DNA from: Pyrinomonadaceae bacterium
GTDB lineage: Bacteria; Acidobacteriota; Blastocatellia; Pyrinomonadales; Pyrinomonadaceae
NCBI GenBank assembly: GCA_026129865.1
Contig: JAHCHG010000013.1
Coordinates: 1 to 64,000 of the forward strand
Reading direction: 5' to 3'
DNA: 64,000 nt
Shown here in pieces: positions 2,870-21,334 of this stretch. The notes under the pieces were generated by a model. The model was not told the origin of the DNA and ran no database searches. It saw only the letters and a list, made by a program, of their open reading frames with translations. Position 1 is the first letter of the stretch; every line of letters begins with the position of its first letter. A program made the position numbers and the translations under genes.

Positions 2870-4801
2870 TTAGCTGACGATCTTTCGCCGCTGCACACCG
2901 GCGCGGCGTTCGTCCATTATTTCAAGGGTTTCTTTAACTTTTGTATATATTCCATCGGTGTCCAGTCCGTATTTTGCAAGCAAAAGCTTCGGATCGCCGT
3001 GCGTGATTATACGGTCTGGAACGCCCATTCTAACGACTTTTACACCGTCGAGCATCGAATTTGCTTCGAGCAGCTCCATAACGGCGGAACCGAAGCCGCC
3101 GGCAAGATAAGCTTCTTCGACGGTTACGATCAAACGCTTGGTTTGCGCCAGCGCCAGGATCAATTCCGAATCAAGCGGTTTGACAAACCTTGCGTTGACG
3201 ACGGTTGCTTCAATTCCGTCTTTTTCAAGCGACGTCGCCGCCTCGAGCGCGGGATGAACCATTGATCCGTATGCGATTATCGCTACCTCGCCGGCAGAAT
3301 CGCGAAGAAGTTCGGCTTTTCCGATCTCGATCTCGGTTGGTTTCTCGCTGATATCAACTCCGACGCCGGCACCGCGCGGGTAACGAATTGCCGCCGGTCC
3401 ATTGTGATTTACAGCCGTTAACATCATGTTGCGCATTTCGGCTTCGTCCTTTGGCGCCATCAAGGTTATGTTCGGATAACCGCGAAGATATGCAATGTCA
3501 AGAAGACCGTGATGCGTTGGACCGTCGGCACCGACGATTCCTGCACGGTCCATGGCAAATGTTACATTCAGATCCTGCAGGCAGACATCGTGAATGATCT
3601 GGTCGAAACCGCGCTGCAGAAAAGTTGAATAGATCGCCGCGACCGGTTTTAATCCTTCGCATGCCATTCCGGCACAAAACGTTACGGCATGCTGTTCGGC
3701 GATTCCCACATCGAACGCGCGTTCGGGAAATTTTTCTAAAACCTGATCGATGCCCGTTCCGTCGGGCATCGCCGCGGTCAGCGCAACGATCTTTTCGTCG
3801 GTTTCCATCAGTTCGCACATCGTTTCGCCGAAGATCTGCGTATAAGATTTCGGCGCGGAACTGCTTGATTTAATGGCTTTTCCGGTTTTCAGATCGAACG
3901 GACCGGTCGCATGCCAGGCGTAGTAATTTTCTTCACGCGACGGATAACCTTTTCCTTTTGTCGTCAGCGCATGCACGATCACCGGACCGTCCTTTACCTT
4001 TTTCGCTTCTTCCAAAGCGCGGACGATCATCGGGACGTTATGTCCGTCGACATAGCCGATGTATTTAAATCCGAGCTCGTTCACAAGCGCACCCGGCAAA
4101 ACCGCTGCCGCGATCGCATCTTTGAACGATTTCGCCGCACGGCGAAGACTGTGTCCGACTCCCGGAACCGAATCCAACGTGTCGCCGATCTCTTCTTTAA
4201 GATGATGATAACTTTGAGCTTCTTTAATTCTATTTAAATATCGCGTAAGCGCGCCGACCGCAGGCGCGATCGACATATCGTTATCGTTCAGCAAAACGAT
4301 CAAGCGCGTTTTAAGATGACCGGCTTGATTTAGAGCCTCCATTGCCATTCCGCCGGCAAGCGACGAATCGCCGATGAGCGCGCAGACGTGATTTTCTTCG
4401 CCGTTCCTGTCGCGTGCGATCGCCATTCCGAGCGCAGCCGAAAGCGACGTTGAAGCATGTCCTGCACCAAATGTGTCGTATTCGGACTCGTCACGACGTA
4501 AAAAACCGCTCAATCCGTCATATTGTTTTAATGTATGAAGCCGGTCTTTTCGCCCGGTGAGAATCTTATGGGCGTACGCCTGATGTCCAACGTCCCAAAC
4601 AAGACGGTCAGCGGGCGTTTCGAAGGCGTAATGCATGGCAACGGCGAGTTCGACCGCGCCGAGGCTTGCACCTGTGTGTCCGCCGATCCGCGAGCAGGTT
4701 TCAAGAATAAACTGCCGAACTTCGTCGGCGACCTCTTGAAGATCCTCAATTTTAAGCTGGCGTAAATCTGCGGGGGAATCGATCTCTGATAAAAATCTCA
4801 T
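2870..4801 (-). CDS. dxs: 1-deoxy-D-xylulose-5-phosphate synthase
   Basis: Condenses pyruvate and glyceraldehyde 3-phosphate to DXP, the first step of the MEP isoprenoid pathway; ThDP and Mg dependent. Its 643 residues are the normal length. The N-terminal ThDP domain shows GGHTGASLG and DVGHQAYAHKILTGR, then LNDNDMSIAPAVGAL. The transketolase-like pyrimidine domain holds IAEQHAVTFCAGMA and DRAGIVGADGPTHHG. Oddly, the usual GDG of the ThDP motif reads GDS here (144-146). ispH of the same pathway lies near 54-55 kb. The stop is only 4 bases before the DsbA-like start. Confidence 0.95.
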   Translation of the reverse strand: MRFLSEIDSPADLRQLKIEDLQEVADEVRQFILETCSRIGGHTGASLGAVELAVAMHYAFETPADRLVWDVGHQAYAHKILTGRKDRLHTLKQYDGLSGFLRRDESEYDTFGAGHASTSLSAALGMAIARDRNGEENHVCALIGDSSLAGGMAMEALNQAGHLKTRLIVLLNDNDMSIAPAVGALTRYLNRIKEAQSYHHLKEEIGDTLDSVPGVGHSLRRAAKSFKDAIAAAVLPGALVNELGFKYIGYVDGHNVPMIVRALEEAKKVKDGPVIVHALTTKGKGYPSREENYYAWHATGPFDLKTGKAIKSSSSAPKSYTQIFGETMCELMETDEKIVALTAAMPDGTGIDQVLEKFPERAFDVGIAEQHAVTFCAGMACEGLKPVAAIYSTFLQRGFDQIIHDVCLQDLNVTFAMDRAGIVGADGPTHHGLLDIAYLRGYPNITLMAPKDEAEMRNMMLTAVNHNGPAAIRYPRGAGVGVDISEKPTEIEIGKAELLRDSAGEVAIIAYGSMVHPALEAATSLEKDGIEATVVNARFVKPLDSELILALAQTKRLIVTVEEAYLAGGFGSAVMELLEANSMLDGVKVVRMGVPDRIITHGDPKLLLAKYGLDTDGIYTKVKETLEIMDERRAGVQRRKIVS

Positions 4802-4982
4802 TAAACTTTGTCCGAATAGGTTTATTTGTTCAAAGATGGCATTTTACCGCGCCGATTCGCAAATGTTAAATCGGAAAGTTTGTTCTGCAGGTAAAATTCA
4901 GACCAAACGCCGTGTGCAGGCGTCTTATATGCACGTTAGCCAACGGCTGATAGATAATAATAAATTTGGAAGAGGAGTAAAT

Positions 4983-5540
4983 ATGGCAATCAATCGTAAA
5001 CTTTTAAACGGAATCGCGCTGGCGGCAGCAGTGTTTGCGCTTTCAACCTTTGTTTCAGCGCAGGAATCAACGACAACGGACGCTCCGGAAAAGCCCGTTA
5101 AAGAGAGAAAATACGAAAAAGGCGGAGAATTCGGTAAGATGAACCGGTTCGGCAGTAAAGGATTCCGCGGCGGACGCGGGCATAATATGATGCGCGGGCT
5201 TCGCGGCATCGATCTGACCGAAGACCAGAAAATGCAGATCCGTTCTCTAATGGAAGCAAACAAGTCGAAATTTGAAGCGAGCCGTGAGGAAATGCGCGAA
5301 CTGATGATGAAAAAGCGCGACGGTTCGATGACAGAAGACGAGAAAGCAAGATTCGAGCAGTTCAAAGCCGACCGAAAAGCCTCGGCAGAACAGATAAAAG
5401 TGACTATTCTTAGTTTGCTGACACCCGAACAGACCGCGAAACTTAATGAAATGAAGGCGGAACGTGAAAAGCGGCGGCAGGAGTTTAAGCAGCGCAGAAT
5501 GGAACGCGCGCCGAGAACGGATGCGCCGAAAAACGATTAG
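4983..5540 (+). CDS. Spy/CpxP-like periplasmic protein with LTxxQ motifs
   Basis: From the ATG at 4983, which has a clear AGAGGAG site just upstream, the protein has 185 residues. A signal peptide (about 1-27) ends in FVSAQ. A basic glycine-rich stretch follows (GSKGFRGGRGHNMMRG), then a helical domain with two LTxxQ motifs, LTEDQKM and LTPEQTA, as in Spy/CpxP envelope chaperones. The C-terminus is highly charged (Lys/Arg/Glu). A longer reading frame to 4836 is open but has no ribosome site. The likely role is folding or stress sensing in the periplasm. A hairpin terminator follows. Confidence 0.8.
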   Translation: MAINRKLLNGIALAAAVFALSTFVSAQESTTTDAPEKPVKERKYEKGGEFGKMNRFGSKGFRGGRGHNMMRGLRGIDLTEDQKMQIRSLMEANKSKFEASREEMRELMMKKRDGSMTEDEKARFEQFKADRKASAEQIKVTILSLLTPEQTAKLNEMKAEREKRRQEFKQRRMERAPRTDAPKND

Positions 5541-5562
5541 AAATCTGCAGTACAGACGATCC

Positions 5563-5602
5563 GAAAACCGCTTGCAGCGTATTTTTGAAAGCGGTTTTTC
5601 GT
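5563..5602 (+). terminator. Hairpin terminator after the Spy-like gene
   Basis: Inverted repeat gaaaaccgctt / aagcggttttt around a 15-base loop, ending in T-rich sequence, 22 bases after the stop codon of the Spy-like gene. Confidence 0.65.
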
Positions 5603-5646
5603 TTATTTTGTGGAATGCGCATCGAATTTGCACTTTCCAATTAACA

Positions 5647-5755
5647 AGCACGAATGACCTTTTTGGATGTTAATCCAGACTCCTTTGCTTTCGGGCAAAG
5701 TTGAAGGCTGACGATGTTTCATGTCAAGGTCGAAGGCTATTTGGTCGTTCGTGCT
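5647..5755. repeat. Spaced inverted repeat of unknown role
   Basis: agcacgaatgacc (5647-5659) matches the reverse complement of ggtcgttcgtgct (5743-5755) with one mismatch, so the 109-base segment could fold back. A small internal hairpin (ctttgc/gcaaag) lies near 5681-5700. It sits between two terminators in the Spy-like/DUF948 convergent gap (5541-5822), where no gene is convincing. It could be a degraded repeat element or a small structured RNA; nothing selects between these. Confidence 0.4.
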
Positions 5756-5767
5756 CGTTTCGCGACA

Positions 5768-5803
5768 AAAAAAGGAGAAGCCGTAAAAAGCTCCTCCTTT
5801 TTT
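5768..5803 (-). terminator. Hairpin terminator downstream of the DUF948 gene
   Basis: A 10-bp stem aaaaaaggag / ctcctttttt around a 16-base loop lies just past the stop of the minus-strand DUF948 gene. It has A and T runs on both sides, so it could also act on transcripts from the plus strand. Confidence 0.75.
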
Positions 5804-5822
5804 GCATGGGATTTTCCGGAAA

Positions 5823-6383
5823 TTATCCGATAAACATCTCGTCTTCGTGATAAACTCTGTCGATCTGTTTCGGCGACGGCGCAAACAAGACTTCGAGACC
5901 TTTTCGAACGCCCGCCATAACAGCCGCAATTTCCCGAGCCGGTTCAACGACCTTTTCCTGAACAAAATCGGTTGTCGTAACAACCTGCATCTGCGTCCGG
6001 TCGATCGTTTGACTGACAAGCGCGACCTTTTCCTTTGCTTCGCGGGCGGTCATTCCTACCAATTCTTTAAGTTCCCCAACTTCTTCGCGGATCAGCTCGG
6101 CAGATTCGGAAAGGTATTTCGTGGTCTTCGAAAGGTTCTCCGATACTTCGGTAAACTGCACCGAGATCTCTTTGCCTTGCGCGCCGATCGCATTTACCTG
6201 ACCGATGAGCGGTTCGACCTTGTCGATCAGCGGATGAACTTTTTCTTCGACACGCTTGACCGAAGCGATAACGCGTTTCACGATCACCGCAATTACGATC
6301 AAAGTAAACGCCATAACTACGAACATTAAGGCGATAACGATCGATGCGATCATCATCCAAAATTGCGGATCAGTGGCATTCAT
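5823..6383 (-). CDS. DUF948-like membrane protein with coiled coil (YtxG-like)
   Basis: A 186-residue protein with one long N-terminal membrane segment (about 8-36). A heptad-rich, t-SNARE or methyl-accepting-like helix follows (RVEEKVHPLIDKVEPLIGQV through ELIREEVGELKELV). This layout fits DUF948 proteins. It lies 18 bases after the YtxH-domain gene, the same pairing as ytxG-ytxH in Bacillus general stress operons. A good ribosome site (GGGGGAAT) precedes the ATG. An envelope stress role is inferred from the pairing only. Confidence 0.65.
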   Translation of the reverse strand: MNATDPQFWMMIASIVIALMFVVMAFTLIVIAVIVKRVIASVKRVEEKVHPLIDKVEPLIGQVNAIGAQGKEISVQFTEVSENLSKTTKYLSESAELIREEVGELKELVGMTAREAKEKVALVSQTIDRTQMQVVTTTDFVQEKVVEPAREIAAVMAGVRKGLEVLFAPSPKQIDRVYHEDEMFIG

Positions 6384-6401
6384 AATTCCCCCTAAATATG
6401 T

Positions 6402-6857
6402 CTAGATTTCCGAGTCGCCCGATTTATCAGATTTTTCTTCAACCGGGTAACTCGGACGCCCTTCGACGATGGATTTTACCTCGTTCTTTTGCTTTTCTTC
6501 GTGATACGCCTTTTTTCCGGCTTCGATAGCTGAGCTAAACGGATTCGCGGTTTGCGCGGCAGCCGATTTCGCTTTTTCACTGATCTCGCCGGCTTTTTCC
6601 TGCGCCGTTTGATAAAATTCGTTCGCCTTTTCGCGAGTCACTTCGTAGTAATCGCCGGCGCGTTCACCGACGAGTGCCGCAGTTTCCTTACCTTTTTCTA
6701 TGCCTTTGCGAGTTACATCAGCGATGTCTCCACGAAGTTCGTGTCCCGATTTGGGCGCGAACAAAAGCGCCAACGCAGCGCCAATTCCGCCGCCGATCAA
6801 CAAATAAGTCAATTTCGTTGCGGCACTTGCTTCTTCCCGTTCGTATTCGTATTTCAT
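6402..6857 (-). CDS. YtxH domain-containing protein
   Basis: A 151-residue protein. The N-terminal membrane helix has the glycine pattern of YtxH (YLLIGGGIGAALALLFAPKSGHELR), followed by Ala/Lys/Glu-rich amphipathic helices of LEA-like character up to about residue 110. The start has a strong AGGAG site seven bases upstream. It is first in an operon with the DUF948-like gene. YtxH proteins are often stress induced; no biochemical role is known. Confidence 0.8.
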   Translation of the reverse strand: MKYEYEREEASAATKLTYLLIGGGIGAALALLFAPKSGHELRGDIADVTRKGIEKGKETAALVGERAGDYYEVTREKANEFYQTAQEKAGEISEKAKSAAAQTANPFSSAIEAGKKAYHEEKQKNEVKSIVEGRPSYPVEEKSDKSGDSEI

Positions 6858-7005
6858 AGTCGATCTCCTCTATCCGCAGACCTGGCTGCGTCCAATAATT
6901 CTAAATGTCTTATGCTTTTGAATATAACAGATACGGGCGTATATGGGCAATGAAAAGTTATTTTTACAAATGCTTAAAATCTGCTGGTTTTTCGCCGGTG
7001 GAAGT

Positions 7006-19338: not shown

Positions 19339-20142
19339 ATGGAATTGGCAGTTGAAAAATATAAGGTGGCGAACGAGCCGTATTATCTTCCGATCGGCAG
19401 CGAGGTGGAACTTTTTGACGCGGCGTATGCGGCGAAACTTCCGGTAATGCTGAAAGGTCCGACCGGATGCGGAAAAACGCGTTTTGTCGAACATATGGCT
19501 TACAAAATGAATCGTCCTTTGATCACGGTTGCGTGTCACGAAGATCTGTCCGCGACCGATCTTGTCGGCAGATTTTTGCTCGAAGGAAACGAGACCGTTT
19601 GGCAGGATGGACCGCTGACCACCGCTGTTCGAAGCGGCGCGATCTGTTATCTGGACGAAGTCGTCGAAGCGCGAAAAGATACGGTTGTCATCATTCACCC
19701 TTTGACGGACGACCGCCGCCGTTTGCCGATCGAAAAACTTGGAACCGTCGTCGAAGCGCCGCCGGAATTTATGCTTGTCGTTTCCTATAATCCGGGTTAT
19801 CAATCGATATTAAAGGATTTGAAACAGTCCACGCGGCAGCGTTTTATAGCAATGGAATTCGATTATCCGAATGCAGAAGATGAAACCGCTATTGTCGCAA
19901 AAGAAGGCGCTATCGACGAACAAACCGCGCGAGATTTGGTAACGATCGGTCGAAAAGTGCGAAACCTGCGCGGACACGGTTTGGAAGAAGGTGTATCAAC
20001 ACGCCTTTTGATCTACGCCGCTCAAATGATCGCGAAAGGAATTTCCCCGATAGACGCGGCTGAAGTAGCAATAGTTTCGCCGATCACCGATGACCGGGAA
20101 CTACAAAGAAGCATTCGGGAGATTGTGACTACGATTATTTGA
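19339..20142 (+). CDS. CbbQ/NirQ/NorQ-type AAA+ ATPase
   Basis: A 267-residue MoxR-group AAA+ protein. Walker A is GPTGCGKT, Walker B is [11 protein letters not shown], sensor 1 lies in [12 protein letters not shown], and [12 protein letters not shown] holds the arginine finger region. The tail [22 protein letters not shown] is typical of CbbQ/NorQ. These ATPases remodel metalloenzymes together with a VWA protein (CbbO/NorD). No VWA gene is next to it here: a toxin-antitoxin module occupies the place, followed by a decayed second copy of this gene's last 23 codons. Confidence 0.9.
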
Positions 20143-20154
20143 TCTGTAAAAATT

Positions 20155-20556
20155 ATGGGAACAGACTTAATTGCAGATACGTCCACTATCATTGCTGTTA
20201 TCGCCAACGAACCGGAAAAACCGATGTTGGTTGCGAAAACTCAAGGATGCGAGTTGTTTGCTCCGTATTCGTTGTATTGGGAAATTGGCAACGCGTTTTC
20301 GGCAATGATTAAACGCGGACGCATCACCTTAGAGCAAGCGACGAAGGCACTTAAAATTTATGAACAAATTTCGCTCACGCTGGTTGATGTTGATTTAAAA
20401 CAAGCATTGAAAATTGTTGACCGTCACAAAGTATATGCTTACGATGCCTACATGATTACTTGCGCCTTAGACAGAGGTTGTCCTTTGCTAACGTTGGACA
20501 GCGGTTTGTCTTACGCTGCTAAAGCGGCGGGAGTCGAAGTTTGGGAGGTAAATTAG
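20155..20556 (+). CDS. PIN-domain toxin, VapC-like ribonuclease
   Basis: A 133-residue PIN fold protein. Acidic active-site residues are visible in LIADTSTIIAV (near residue 8), YWEIGNAFSAM (glutamate near 44), and YDAYMITCALDRGCPLLTLDSGL (aspartates near 100 and 118). VapC-type toxins cut tRNA or rRNA. It starts 12 bases after the CbbQ gene and is followed after 3 bases by a small antitoxin-like gene, so the toxin comes first, the reverse of most vapBC pairs. RNA target unknown. Confidence 0.88.
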   Translation: MGTDLIADTSTIIAVIANEPEKPMLVAKTQGCELFAPYSLYWEIGNAFSAMIKRGRITLEQATKALKIYEQISLTLVDVDLKQALKIVDRHKVYAYDAYMITCALDRGCPLLTLDSGLSYAAKAAGVEVWEVN

Positions 20557-20559
20557 CAA

Positions 20560-20772
20560 ATGCAGACATATTCTGAAAAGCATGAAAATCTTACGGCTCT
20601 CCTTGAACGGGCAAGCGAGAAAGGCGGGGTCCGAATCAAGCGGGCAAACGGCGATGTGTTCATACTCAAACCGGAGAAAAAACATTCCGCGCTTGATGTA
20701 AAGGGCATTGATTTGGGAATTTCGACTGAGGAAATCATAGAATTCGTGCGTGAAGGACGCGAACGGTTTTAA
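20560..20772 (+). CDS. Antitoxin-like small protein, partner of the PIN toxin
   Basis: A 70-residue protein of the type often found next to PIN toxins. A short helical N-terminus (ENLTALLERASEKGG) and a beta hairpin (VRIKRANGDVFILKPEKK) precede a C-terminal ALDVKGIDLGISTEEIIEFVREGRERF that probably wraps the toxin. A GGGAGG site lies 13 bases upstream, inside the toxin gene. It is labelled an antitoxin from context and general pattern; no DNA-binding motif is obvious. Confidence 0.72.
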   Translation: MQTYSEKHENLTALLERASEKGGVRIKRANGDVFILKPEKKHSALDVKGIDLGISTEEIIEFVREGRERF

Positions 20773-20803
20773 GATTCGCCGAAATACCGGACAAACCGCG
20801 TTT

Positions 20804-20872
20804 GTTTCACCGATCGCCGACGACAGAGGACTGCAAAACGGTATTCGGGAGACTGTGAGGACGATCAGCTAG
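20804..20872 (+). pseudogene. Decayed second copy of the CbbQ gene 3' end
   Basis: These 69 bases align without gaps to the last 23 codons of the CbbQ-type gene (20074-20142). By direct count about 50 of 69 bases match. The translation VSPIADDRGLQNGIRETVRTIS shares 15 of 22 residues with the intact tail and also ends in a stop. Nothing upstream of 20804 continues the gene, because the antitoxin stop is only 31 bases before. It is the scar of a duplication or of insertion of the toxin-antitoxin module into the gene's 3' end. Confidence 0.75.
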
Positions 20873-20883
20873 GAAATCGATTT

Positions 20884-21099
20884 ATGAAACATATTACGGT
20901 TAAAACAATTGTTGCAATTATCACTTTCATCGTAGGTGTTACTTTTGCAGTTTTCTGGTTTGAATTACCAAGTCGAATACAGACATTTTCAAATGTTCCT
21001 ACCGTTTCAAAAGAAGCTGAAGATTATGCGGTTTATTCTGTTGTTTTGAATGAATTTTTTGCCCAACCGAAACAGCTTATGAATTGCCGTCTGCTTTAG
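20884..21099 (+). pseudogene. Truncated small membrane-anchored hypothetical gene
   Basis: A 71-residue open frame with an N-terminal membrane helix (about 5-25, VKTIVAIITFIVGVTFAVFWF) and a helical stretch EAEDYAVYSVVLNEFFAQP. The last residues (MNCRLL) are read from the left inverted repeat of the element at 21082-21254, so the original C-terminus was probably replaced. The family is not recognised. It could be a short functional peptide, but the junction with the repeat argues for a broken gene. No continuation is seen beyond the element. Confidence 0.55.
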
Positions 21100-21254
21100 C
21101 TGACGGAACAGATTGATAAGAAATTGCGGCTTTAGCCAAATTTATTAAAAATATCAATCATCCTTTTCGCTTTAGCTAAACTGCATTTCACTAAAGTTCG
21201 GCTAAAGCCTTTTATTTTTACTTCATTGTCCGTCAGCTAAAGCAGACGGCAATT
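21082..21254. mobile_element. MITE-like element with 26-bp perfect terminal inverted repeats
   Basis: Bases 21082-21107 and 21229-21254 are exact reverse complements over 26 bases (core gccgtctgctttagctgacg). The 173-base element has no coding capacity. Inside are further copies of a ctttagc/gctaaag theme (gcggctttagcc, cgctttagctaa, tcggctaaagcc). The left arm runs into the coding frame of a small membrane gene. It could be a non-autonomous transposon or a large REP-type palindrome. No target-site duplication is clear. Confidence 0.75.
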
Positions 21255-21334
21255 TATGTTTGAAAAATACAATGTCTAGCATTCTGTGCAATCCCCAAAA
21301 TTAGTTATAAAGTAATACTTTCCGAATTATCAAT

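Follow-up and report, generated by a model that had tools for sequence, protein, structure and literature searches.

Our analysis of a 64,000-nucleotide stretch of DNA (hereafter, the window) from a Pyrinomonadaceae bacterium (GCA_026129865.1, contig JAHCHG010000013.1, positions 1-64,000, forward strand) identified a putative toxin-antitoxin gene pair lying between two copies of the 3' end of a cbbQ gene, the second of which is displaced and decayed. We consider it probable (about 0.6) that this PIN cassette entered at the 3' end of cbbQ, either bringing a homologous cbbQ tail along or recombining within one. The observations comprise the two tails of the window, sibling insertions that also have a displaced tail, cargo that varies between loci, recurrence of the layout at many other genes (at either the 3' or the 5' end), arrays of cassettes, and differences between the copies that are biased toward the third codon position.

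The resident gene of the window (19339-20142, forward strand) is intact and encodes a 267 amino acid CbbQ/NorQ-type AAA ATPase with a match in 58 of 60 relatives; its identification as CbbQ-type in a first-pass annotation of this DNA was borne out by Pfam matches to AAA_5 (E 1.7e-36) and CbbQ_C (E 1.1e-31). The tail of this gene, copy A (20074-20142, forward strand; 22 residues), follows the family consensus. An ORF that starts 12 bases past the cbbQ stop (20155-20556, forward strand) encodes a 133 amino acid PIN-domain protein, the putative toxin (PF01850, E 7.2e-9, above the cut-off), and is adjoined by an ORF encoding a 70 amino acid putative antitoxin (20560-20772, forward strand). Relatives of the PIN protein, 62-80% identical, occur in 4 of the 118 other family genomes, and the 5 of 119 family genomes with a relative of one protein are also those with a relative of the other, the two being adjacent in all five; in all four stretches from other genomes that carry this pair, it lies away from cbbQ. 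The PIN domain and a small adjacent partner that travels with it were both recovered; no known antitoxin family could be assigned to the partner, which had no match in Pfam, NCBIfam or PADLOC. Judged from these sequence features, the PIN gene and its small travelling partner form a putative toxin-antitoxin pair. The usual gene order of VapBC modules places the antitoxin first, and in the window the PIN gene comes first; given this order and the lack of a known antitoxin family for the partner, we refer to a PIN toxin-antitoxin pair and not to a VapBC member.

Behind the pair, the cassette end (20773-20803, forward strand; DNA similarity to the copy of the pair in genome G075 reaches 20784) is followed by copy B, the displaced tail (20804-20872, forward strand), which ends in TAG and has a tail score of 34, against a control maximum of 20. 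As the first-pass annotation had described, copies A and B align ungapped at 50 of 69 bases and 15 of 22 residues and share the position of the stop; the second-best match of any 69-mer to the tail, on both strands of the whole window, is 35 of 69, and the similarity breaks off at both ends of the 69-base match. The peptide of copy B (VSPIADDRGLQNGIRETVRTIS) is altered at positions conserved in relatives, in agreement with the earlier view that the downstream copy is the decayed one. The 40 amino acid ORF around copy B had no family match, so that this copy is a fragment and not part of another full-length gene. Between the two window copies there are 6 synonymous and 11 nonsynonymous codon changes, so that a synonymous bias is not apparent from this pair alone. 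The downstream flank (20873-21334, forward strand) had no match in the other 89 CbbQ loci. Positions 21077-21257 hold a repeat with near-palindromic ends (GCTTTAGCTGACGG type) that has matches at many other places of the genome, in either orientation, and resembles a small mobile repeat of the non-autonomous kind.

When the tail peptide was searched against 119 whole genomes of the family, several proved to have a second, incomplete tail a short distance downstream of cbbQ. We then scanned up to 5 kb downstream of cbbQ in 90 CbbQ loci (the window and 89 loci from 87 genomes, two of which contribute two each). A displaced tail with a score of at least 25 was present in 8 of the 90 loci (the window, G093, G115, G034, G101, G081, G117 and G102), and the control maxima were 20 for 610 other cbbQ segments, 19 for the reverse strand and 14 for upstream DNA. 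Comparison with relatives added two weaker cases, G100 and G096, giving 10 of 90 loci; one displaced tail is common to G096 and G117. Beyond 5 kb, no tail score of 19 was found in the 57 loci reaching that far. When the scan was applied to the tails of 556 genes (from the cbbQ stretches, four stretches carrying the PIN pair, and the window), scores of at least 20 were obtained for 7 cbbQ genes and three other genes, in L124, L054 and L056. In 17 genomes from other families of the class, for which the query is less sensitive, no second cbbQ tail was found at E 0.5 or better. Most titled records among the relatives are assemblies from metagenomes, and an individual locus may therefore be misassembled. 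The cbbQ frame is broken in L110 and L079. In G086, cbbQ ends with different DNA behind them lie on two contigs (L077 and L078), perhaps from two strains binned together.

It is hardly credible that these second tails are leftovers of a tandem cbbQ duplication, in which the second copy was deleted save for its tail and a gene pair landed between. Such an event would yield two tails, and genome G122 does have two cbbQ genes, on separate contigs; but none of the other 90-base cbbQ segments was found displaced in the 90 loci, the empty sites described below show a single tail, and the other target genes and the arrays would be left unexplained.

The DNA between the cbbQ tails differs from locus to locus. 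Four loci (the window, G101, G081 and G100) have PIN pairs, themselves different between loci. In G117 and G102, the tails enclose a nucleotidyltransferase of the DUF6036 type and a small partner. The cargo is a 107 amino acid protein in G093, a hypothetical protein in G115 and four other ORFs in G096. In G034 (locus L074), an 839 amino acid protein is encoded 100-2619 behind the cbbQ stop, between tails alike at 50 of 54 bases; this protein resembles a fusion of a nucleotide cyclase with a radical SAM domain. No recombinase was seen among the cargo ORFs between cbbQ tails. Relatives of the DUF6036 nucleotidyltransferase also lie shortly behind cbbQ in L060, L078, L082, L098, L100 and L103, with a small partner gene in L082 and L100 that had no Pfam match where tested and that may make up an undescribed toxin-antitoxin pair with the nucleotidyltransferase. 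Comparison of G078 with G079, a close relative, shows that the PIN pair immediately following cbbQ in G078 lacks a displaced tail; together with the PIN loci without copies described below, this indicates that the tails are not required, or that they have been lost. We set aside a count suggesting a PIN hotspot behind cbbQ (8 in the first 1 kb, against none in 813 kb elsewhere, over 89 loci), because the profile had been built from the near genes and the count is biased; an alternative estimate, from 149 PF01850 matches in 12 genomes of which 8 had been picked for having a PIN gene near cbbQ, gives 0.28 expected in 87 kb.

DNA following a displaced tail was aligned with DNA directly following cbbQ in other genomes, which gives an independent prediction of the position of the displaced stop. 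The stop was found at the predicted place in three loci: at 441 in G093 (chance about 0.03; empty relatives G116 and G084), at 594 in G115 (chance about 0.01; empty relatives G008 and three others) and at 727 in G100 (chance about 0.02; empty relatives G097 and three others). The flank of G093 runs on into G116 at 88% identity. Empty sites carry a single tail; in the material examined, neither doubled tails at such sites nor a full-length gene around copy B was found, copy B being a fragment. The insertion at the cbbQ 3' end proposed in the first-pass annotation is thus upheld at these sibling loci; the search for an empty counterpart of the window's own locus found none, as 20873-21340 matches none of the other 89 CbbQ loci. 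Most other predictions, mainly from distant relatives, showed no tail at the predicted place. In G101, the gene matching that of G103 sits behind a second cassette, and there was no tail at the stop predicted from G103. For G117 and G096, the comparison with the candidate empty site G106 was weak (scores of 23-24 against null maxima of 21-23).

Some of these loci also bear on where the copies came from. The cbbQ genes of G096 and G117 differ at 8 of the last 18 bases and at none of the 48 before them (p 8e-6), and the displaced tail of G096 is of the G106-like type (17 of 18 bases). The left part of the displaced tail of G115 is like G099 and G081 at 30 of 30 bases and like its own gene at 23. 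The G096/G117 and G115 matches imply that the copies had different origins in these cases. The displaced tail of G100 consists of the last 18 bases only. Third-position divergence that looked raised in the last codons of 8 close pairs first suggested that crossovers regularly fall 18 bases ahead of the stop of cbbQ. This was dropped as a general feature, the test for tail swapping being negative: among 40 close pairs, mean mismatches in the last 18 bases were 3.2 with the same downstream DNA (5 pairs) and 3.4 with different downstream DNA (35 pairs), and are therefore independent of what lies downstream. The G096/G117 break was kept as a single case.

Next, we compared the copies in 28 pairs, 10 at cbbQ and 18 elsewhere, which are not independent because arrays share a resident copy. 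Differences at codon positions 1, 2 and 3 number 73, 42 and 174 (611-613 sites per position), and 144 of the differing codons are synonymous and 86 nonsynonymous; in seven well-preserved pairs, picked after the fact, the counts are 46 and 3. The copies span 18 to about 115 gene bases, and in 20 of the 28 pairs the two copies cease to resemble each other no more than 10 bases from the stop codon; in 5 the resemblance continues 13-59 bases past it, and in 3 it breaks off 25-30 bases before it. The third-position bias indicates that the copies diverged as working genes in separate lineages and not by local duplication. The pattern fits two functional genes that diverged apart and met by recombination, and fits local duplication poorly; of the readings offered in the first-pass annotation, recombination of a homologous donor is the one favored.

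Local duplication has a precedent that deserves weight. Restriction-modification (R-M) genes reportedly insert with long target duplications of variable length, an observation said to go back to Nobusato (2000) and Furuta (2010). Three articles describe direct repeats of about this kind, around 100 bp long (PMC3874152, PMC3031569, PMC1643837), the first of them giving target duplications "in the order of 100 bp", and a fourth also cites R-M insertion with a long target duplication (PMC2654758). R-M insertion is the closest precedent to the layout described here, as both involve a stand-alone selfish unit and direct repeats of the order of 100 bp. The cassettes differ from it in that their cargo is mostly of the toxin-antitoxin type, the copies lie at gene 3' or 5' ends and look homeologous, and arrays occur. 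A reading in which the insertion likewise duplicated tens of bases in situ, with one copy then decaying, is favored by copy lengths of the order given in PMC3874152, a selfish-type gene pair as cargo, flanking repeats of tens to about 100 bp with no transposase seen, and nearly identical copies in G102 (25 of 25 bases) and G034. We nevertheless regard this as unlikely, because a copy decaying in place should change at all codon positions, and the differences are third-position-biased and almost purely synonymous in the well-preserved pairs; moreover, a random duplication would not respect the stop as most of the similarities do. Over the 28 copy pairs, the differences thus speak against repeats made by duplicating the target at insertion.

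Recombination with a diverged cbbQ tail, the reading we prefer, has also to be weighed against site-specific integration, in which a trans-acting recombinase would use the 3' end of cbbQ for attachment and the cassettes would be what remains of integrative elements. One gene end is hit repeatedly, the G096/G117 break and the G100 tail both fall at 18 bases before the stop, and PF00589 genes exist somewhere in each of the 10 occupied genomes. However, no PF00589 or PF00239 match falls within a cassette, and the closest one sharing a contig with a cassette is 30 kb off (G100; the G093 contig spans only 6.1 kb). Six matches from a crude motif scan for a nearby recombinase were judged spurious by eye, and family searches found nothing near. 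The tail had no match in viral contigs by an exact degenerate pattern, and none in phages. A plasmid carrier was also considered and rejected: the search returned 13 records, all below 60% identity, and of the 10 listed, 9 fall on annotated CbbQ/AAA genes and one on none. The layout also occurs at unrelated genes and at 5' ends, so that no single attachment core is apparent, and the copy lengths vary. Site-specific integration is accordingly improbable in our judgment, and the comparison with integrase-type elements made in the first-pass annotation was not sustained.

Known elements of this kind share part of the layout. In phages and islands of the e14-in-icd type, a carried tail restores the gene end and the old tail is displaced. 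The cassettes share the restored end and displaced tail, but e14-type elements carry an integrase and use one target. Many Acinetobacter dif modules are not known to encode a recombinase of their own. These modules are described as small mobile units that move by Xer recombination and are tied to toxin-antitoxin genes. They are bounded by short Xer sites, whereas no common site sequence was seen among the cassettes.

Beyond cbbQ, we surveyed PIN genes in the 12 genomes with 149 PF01850 matches; of the 141 not at cbbQ, 100 were fetched, including 16 others of the window's own genome, and 99 were analyzed. Neither the 12 genomes nor the 100 loci are a random sample, as most of the first 60 follow list order. 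Direct flanking repeats were present at 21 of the 99 loci, and inverted repeats, used as a control, at none. The repeat is the end of a neighboring gene at 16 of the 99 loci, whereas this holds for 0 of 272 control ORFs (p 2.5e-10), and at 13 of 99 (p 1.9e-8) under a strict count that drops three loci with weak or oppositely oriented repeats (L265, with 19 bases, L286 and L250). The controls were ORFs of 90-260 amino acids from cbbQ neighborhoods and the window, 8 of which have flanking repeats, none of them a gene end. Repeats that are not gene ends were excluded (L209, a long paralogous stretch; L247; L275), L255 was not counted as its gene-end-like repeat belongs to a gene not resolved as an ORF, and L223 was missed by the automatic rule, which leaves 83 of the 99 loci without a gene-end copy. 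In a previous scan that allowed no gaps, the counts were 12 of 60 for PIN loci and 3 of 240 for random centers. In the window's own genome, 5 of the 16 other PIN loci belong to the gene-end class (L194, L198, L250, L252 and L256). The arrangement sought on the advice of the first-pass annotation was thus found at other cbbQ loci and at other PIN loci, and the remark that a stand-alone toxin-antitoxin pair moving in this way would be unusual proved wrong, because the layout recurs.

The target genes are ordinary core-type genes. According to Pfam, the copied 3' ends belong to genes for an acyl-CoA dehydrogenase (L194), an alanine dehydrogenase/PNT type protein (L200), an ABC1 kinase (L216), a deoxyhypusine synthase (L232), an aldehyde dehydrogenase (L237), an AMP-binding/acyltransferase protein (L252), a VWA protein (L256) and a phenylalanyl-tRNA synthetase type protein (L267), and the copied 5' ends to genes for a UPF0004/radical SAM/TRAM protein (L198) and a D-2-hydroxyacid dehydrogenase (L274). 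Three tail copies each are present in L194, L200 and L232. At L223 (G101:C15:218300-223700), a 440 amino acid gene product with no Pfam match is followed by a Gp49/HTH pair, a PIN stretch and a GNAT gene, with tail copies between them. In 13 genomes from other families of the class, flanking repeats were found at 5 of 30 PIN loci, 3 of them at gene ends: the 3' end of an M19 dipeptidase gene (L302), a 5' gene end (L293) and the 5' end of an opposite gene (L301). Among 30 PIN relatives, nearly all from other phyla, 3 have repeats and one of these is a gene end: in an Anaerolineae record (L178), a PIN gene is flanked on one side by the end of a gene of the phage integrase family and on the other by a repeat of this end (122 bases, 79.5%). 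Finally, at L124 (G001, reverse strand, 4487-6938), a Vsr mismatch endonuclease gene is directly followed by a displaced gene tail, about 86 bases long and 2.3 kb downstream of the original, which links the gene-end layout to R-M-type cargo.

The arrays at L223, L194, L200 and L232 are integron-like in that tandem cassettes are separated by a repeat, which is not the case at the window locus, and the repeats are host gene ends. A further parallel is provided by the islands at the 3' end of ssrA in Dehalococcoides, for which PMC3146451 describes tandem modules each bounded by a 3'-end repeat, a single RNA gene as target, 20-bp repeats, and a serine-recombinase integration module in 16 of 31 islands. 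Both have tandem modules behind a gene, bounded by its 3'-end repeat; unlike those islands, the cassettes use many protein genes, their copies vary, and no recombinase was seen in them. No report of the gene-end-copy layout for toxin-antitoxin genes was present among the open full-text matches listed.

Under the preferred reading, we infer that a cassette would enter by homologous (homeologous) recombination after DNA uptake, the short gene-end stretches on its two sides acting as homology arms, so that cbbQ would stay intact and a second tail would be left behind the cassette. Copies of 18 to about 115 bases are short for ordinary RecA recombination. Neither a donor, a circular form nor the recombination step was seen. 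As both arms come from one gene, possession of that gene would be enough for a relative to receive the cassette, regardless of the downstream DNA, and conserved neighbors would not be needed; the cbbQ neighborhood is indeed unconserved between genera, with no match for the 9 other genes of an 11-kb region of the window (PIN pair included) in the 9 closest stretches. When a cassette first gains a tail at a gene new to it, the simplest guess is that this may happen through an illegitimate join where the homology ends.

It is conceivable, though we would put the odds somewhat below even, that these loci belong to a general recombinase-free cassette system in which selfish gene pairs carry a copy of a host gene end on their far side. 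If so, cassettes would enter any relative with the gene, stack in arrays and swap, like integron cassettes with gene ends as their sites. The layout also serves as a search signature, namely a small gene pair followed by a displaced gene end, which marked 16 of 99 PIN loci and none of 272 control ORFs; it finds insertions without a comparison genome, allows them to be ranked by the state of the displaced copy, and can be applied to any genome. To our knowledge, there is no settled account of how toxin-antitoxin pairs that stand alone on chromosomes spread, and the layout offers a testable route for this spread, namely gene-end homology on both sides of the pair.
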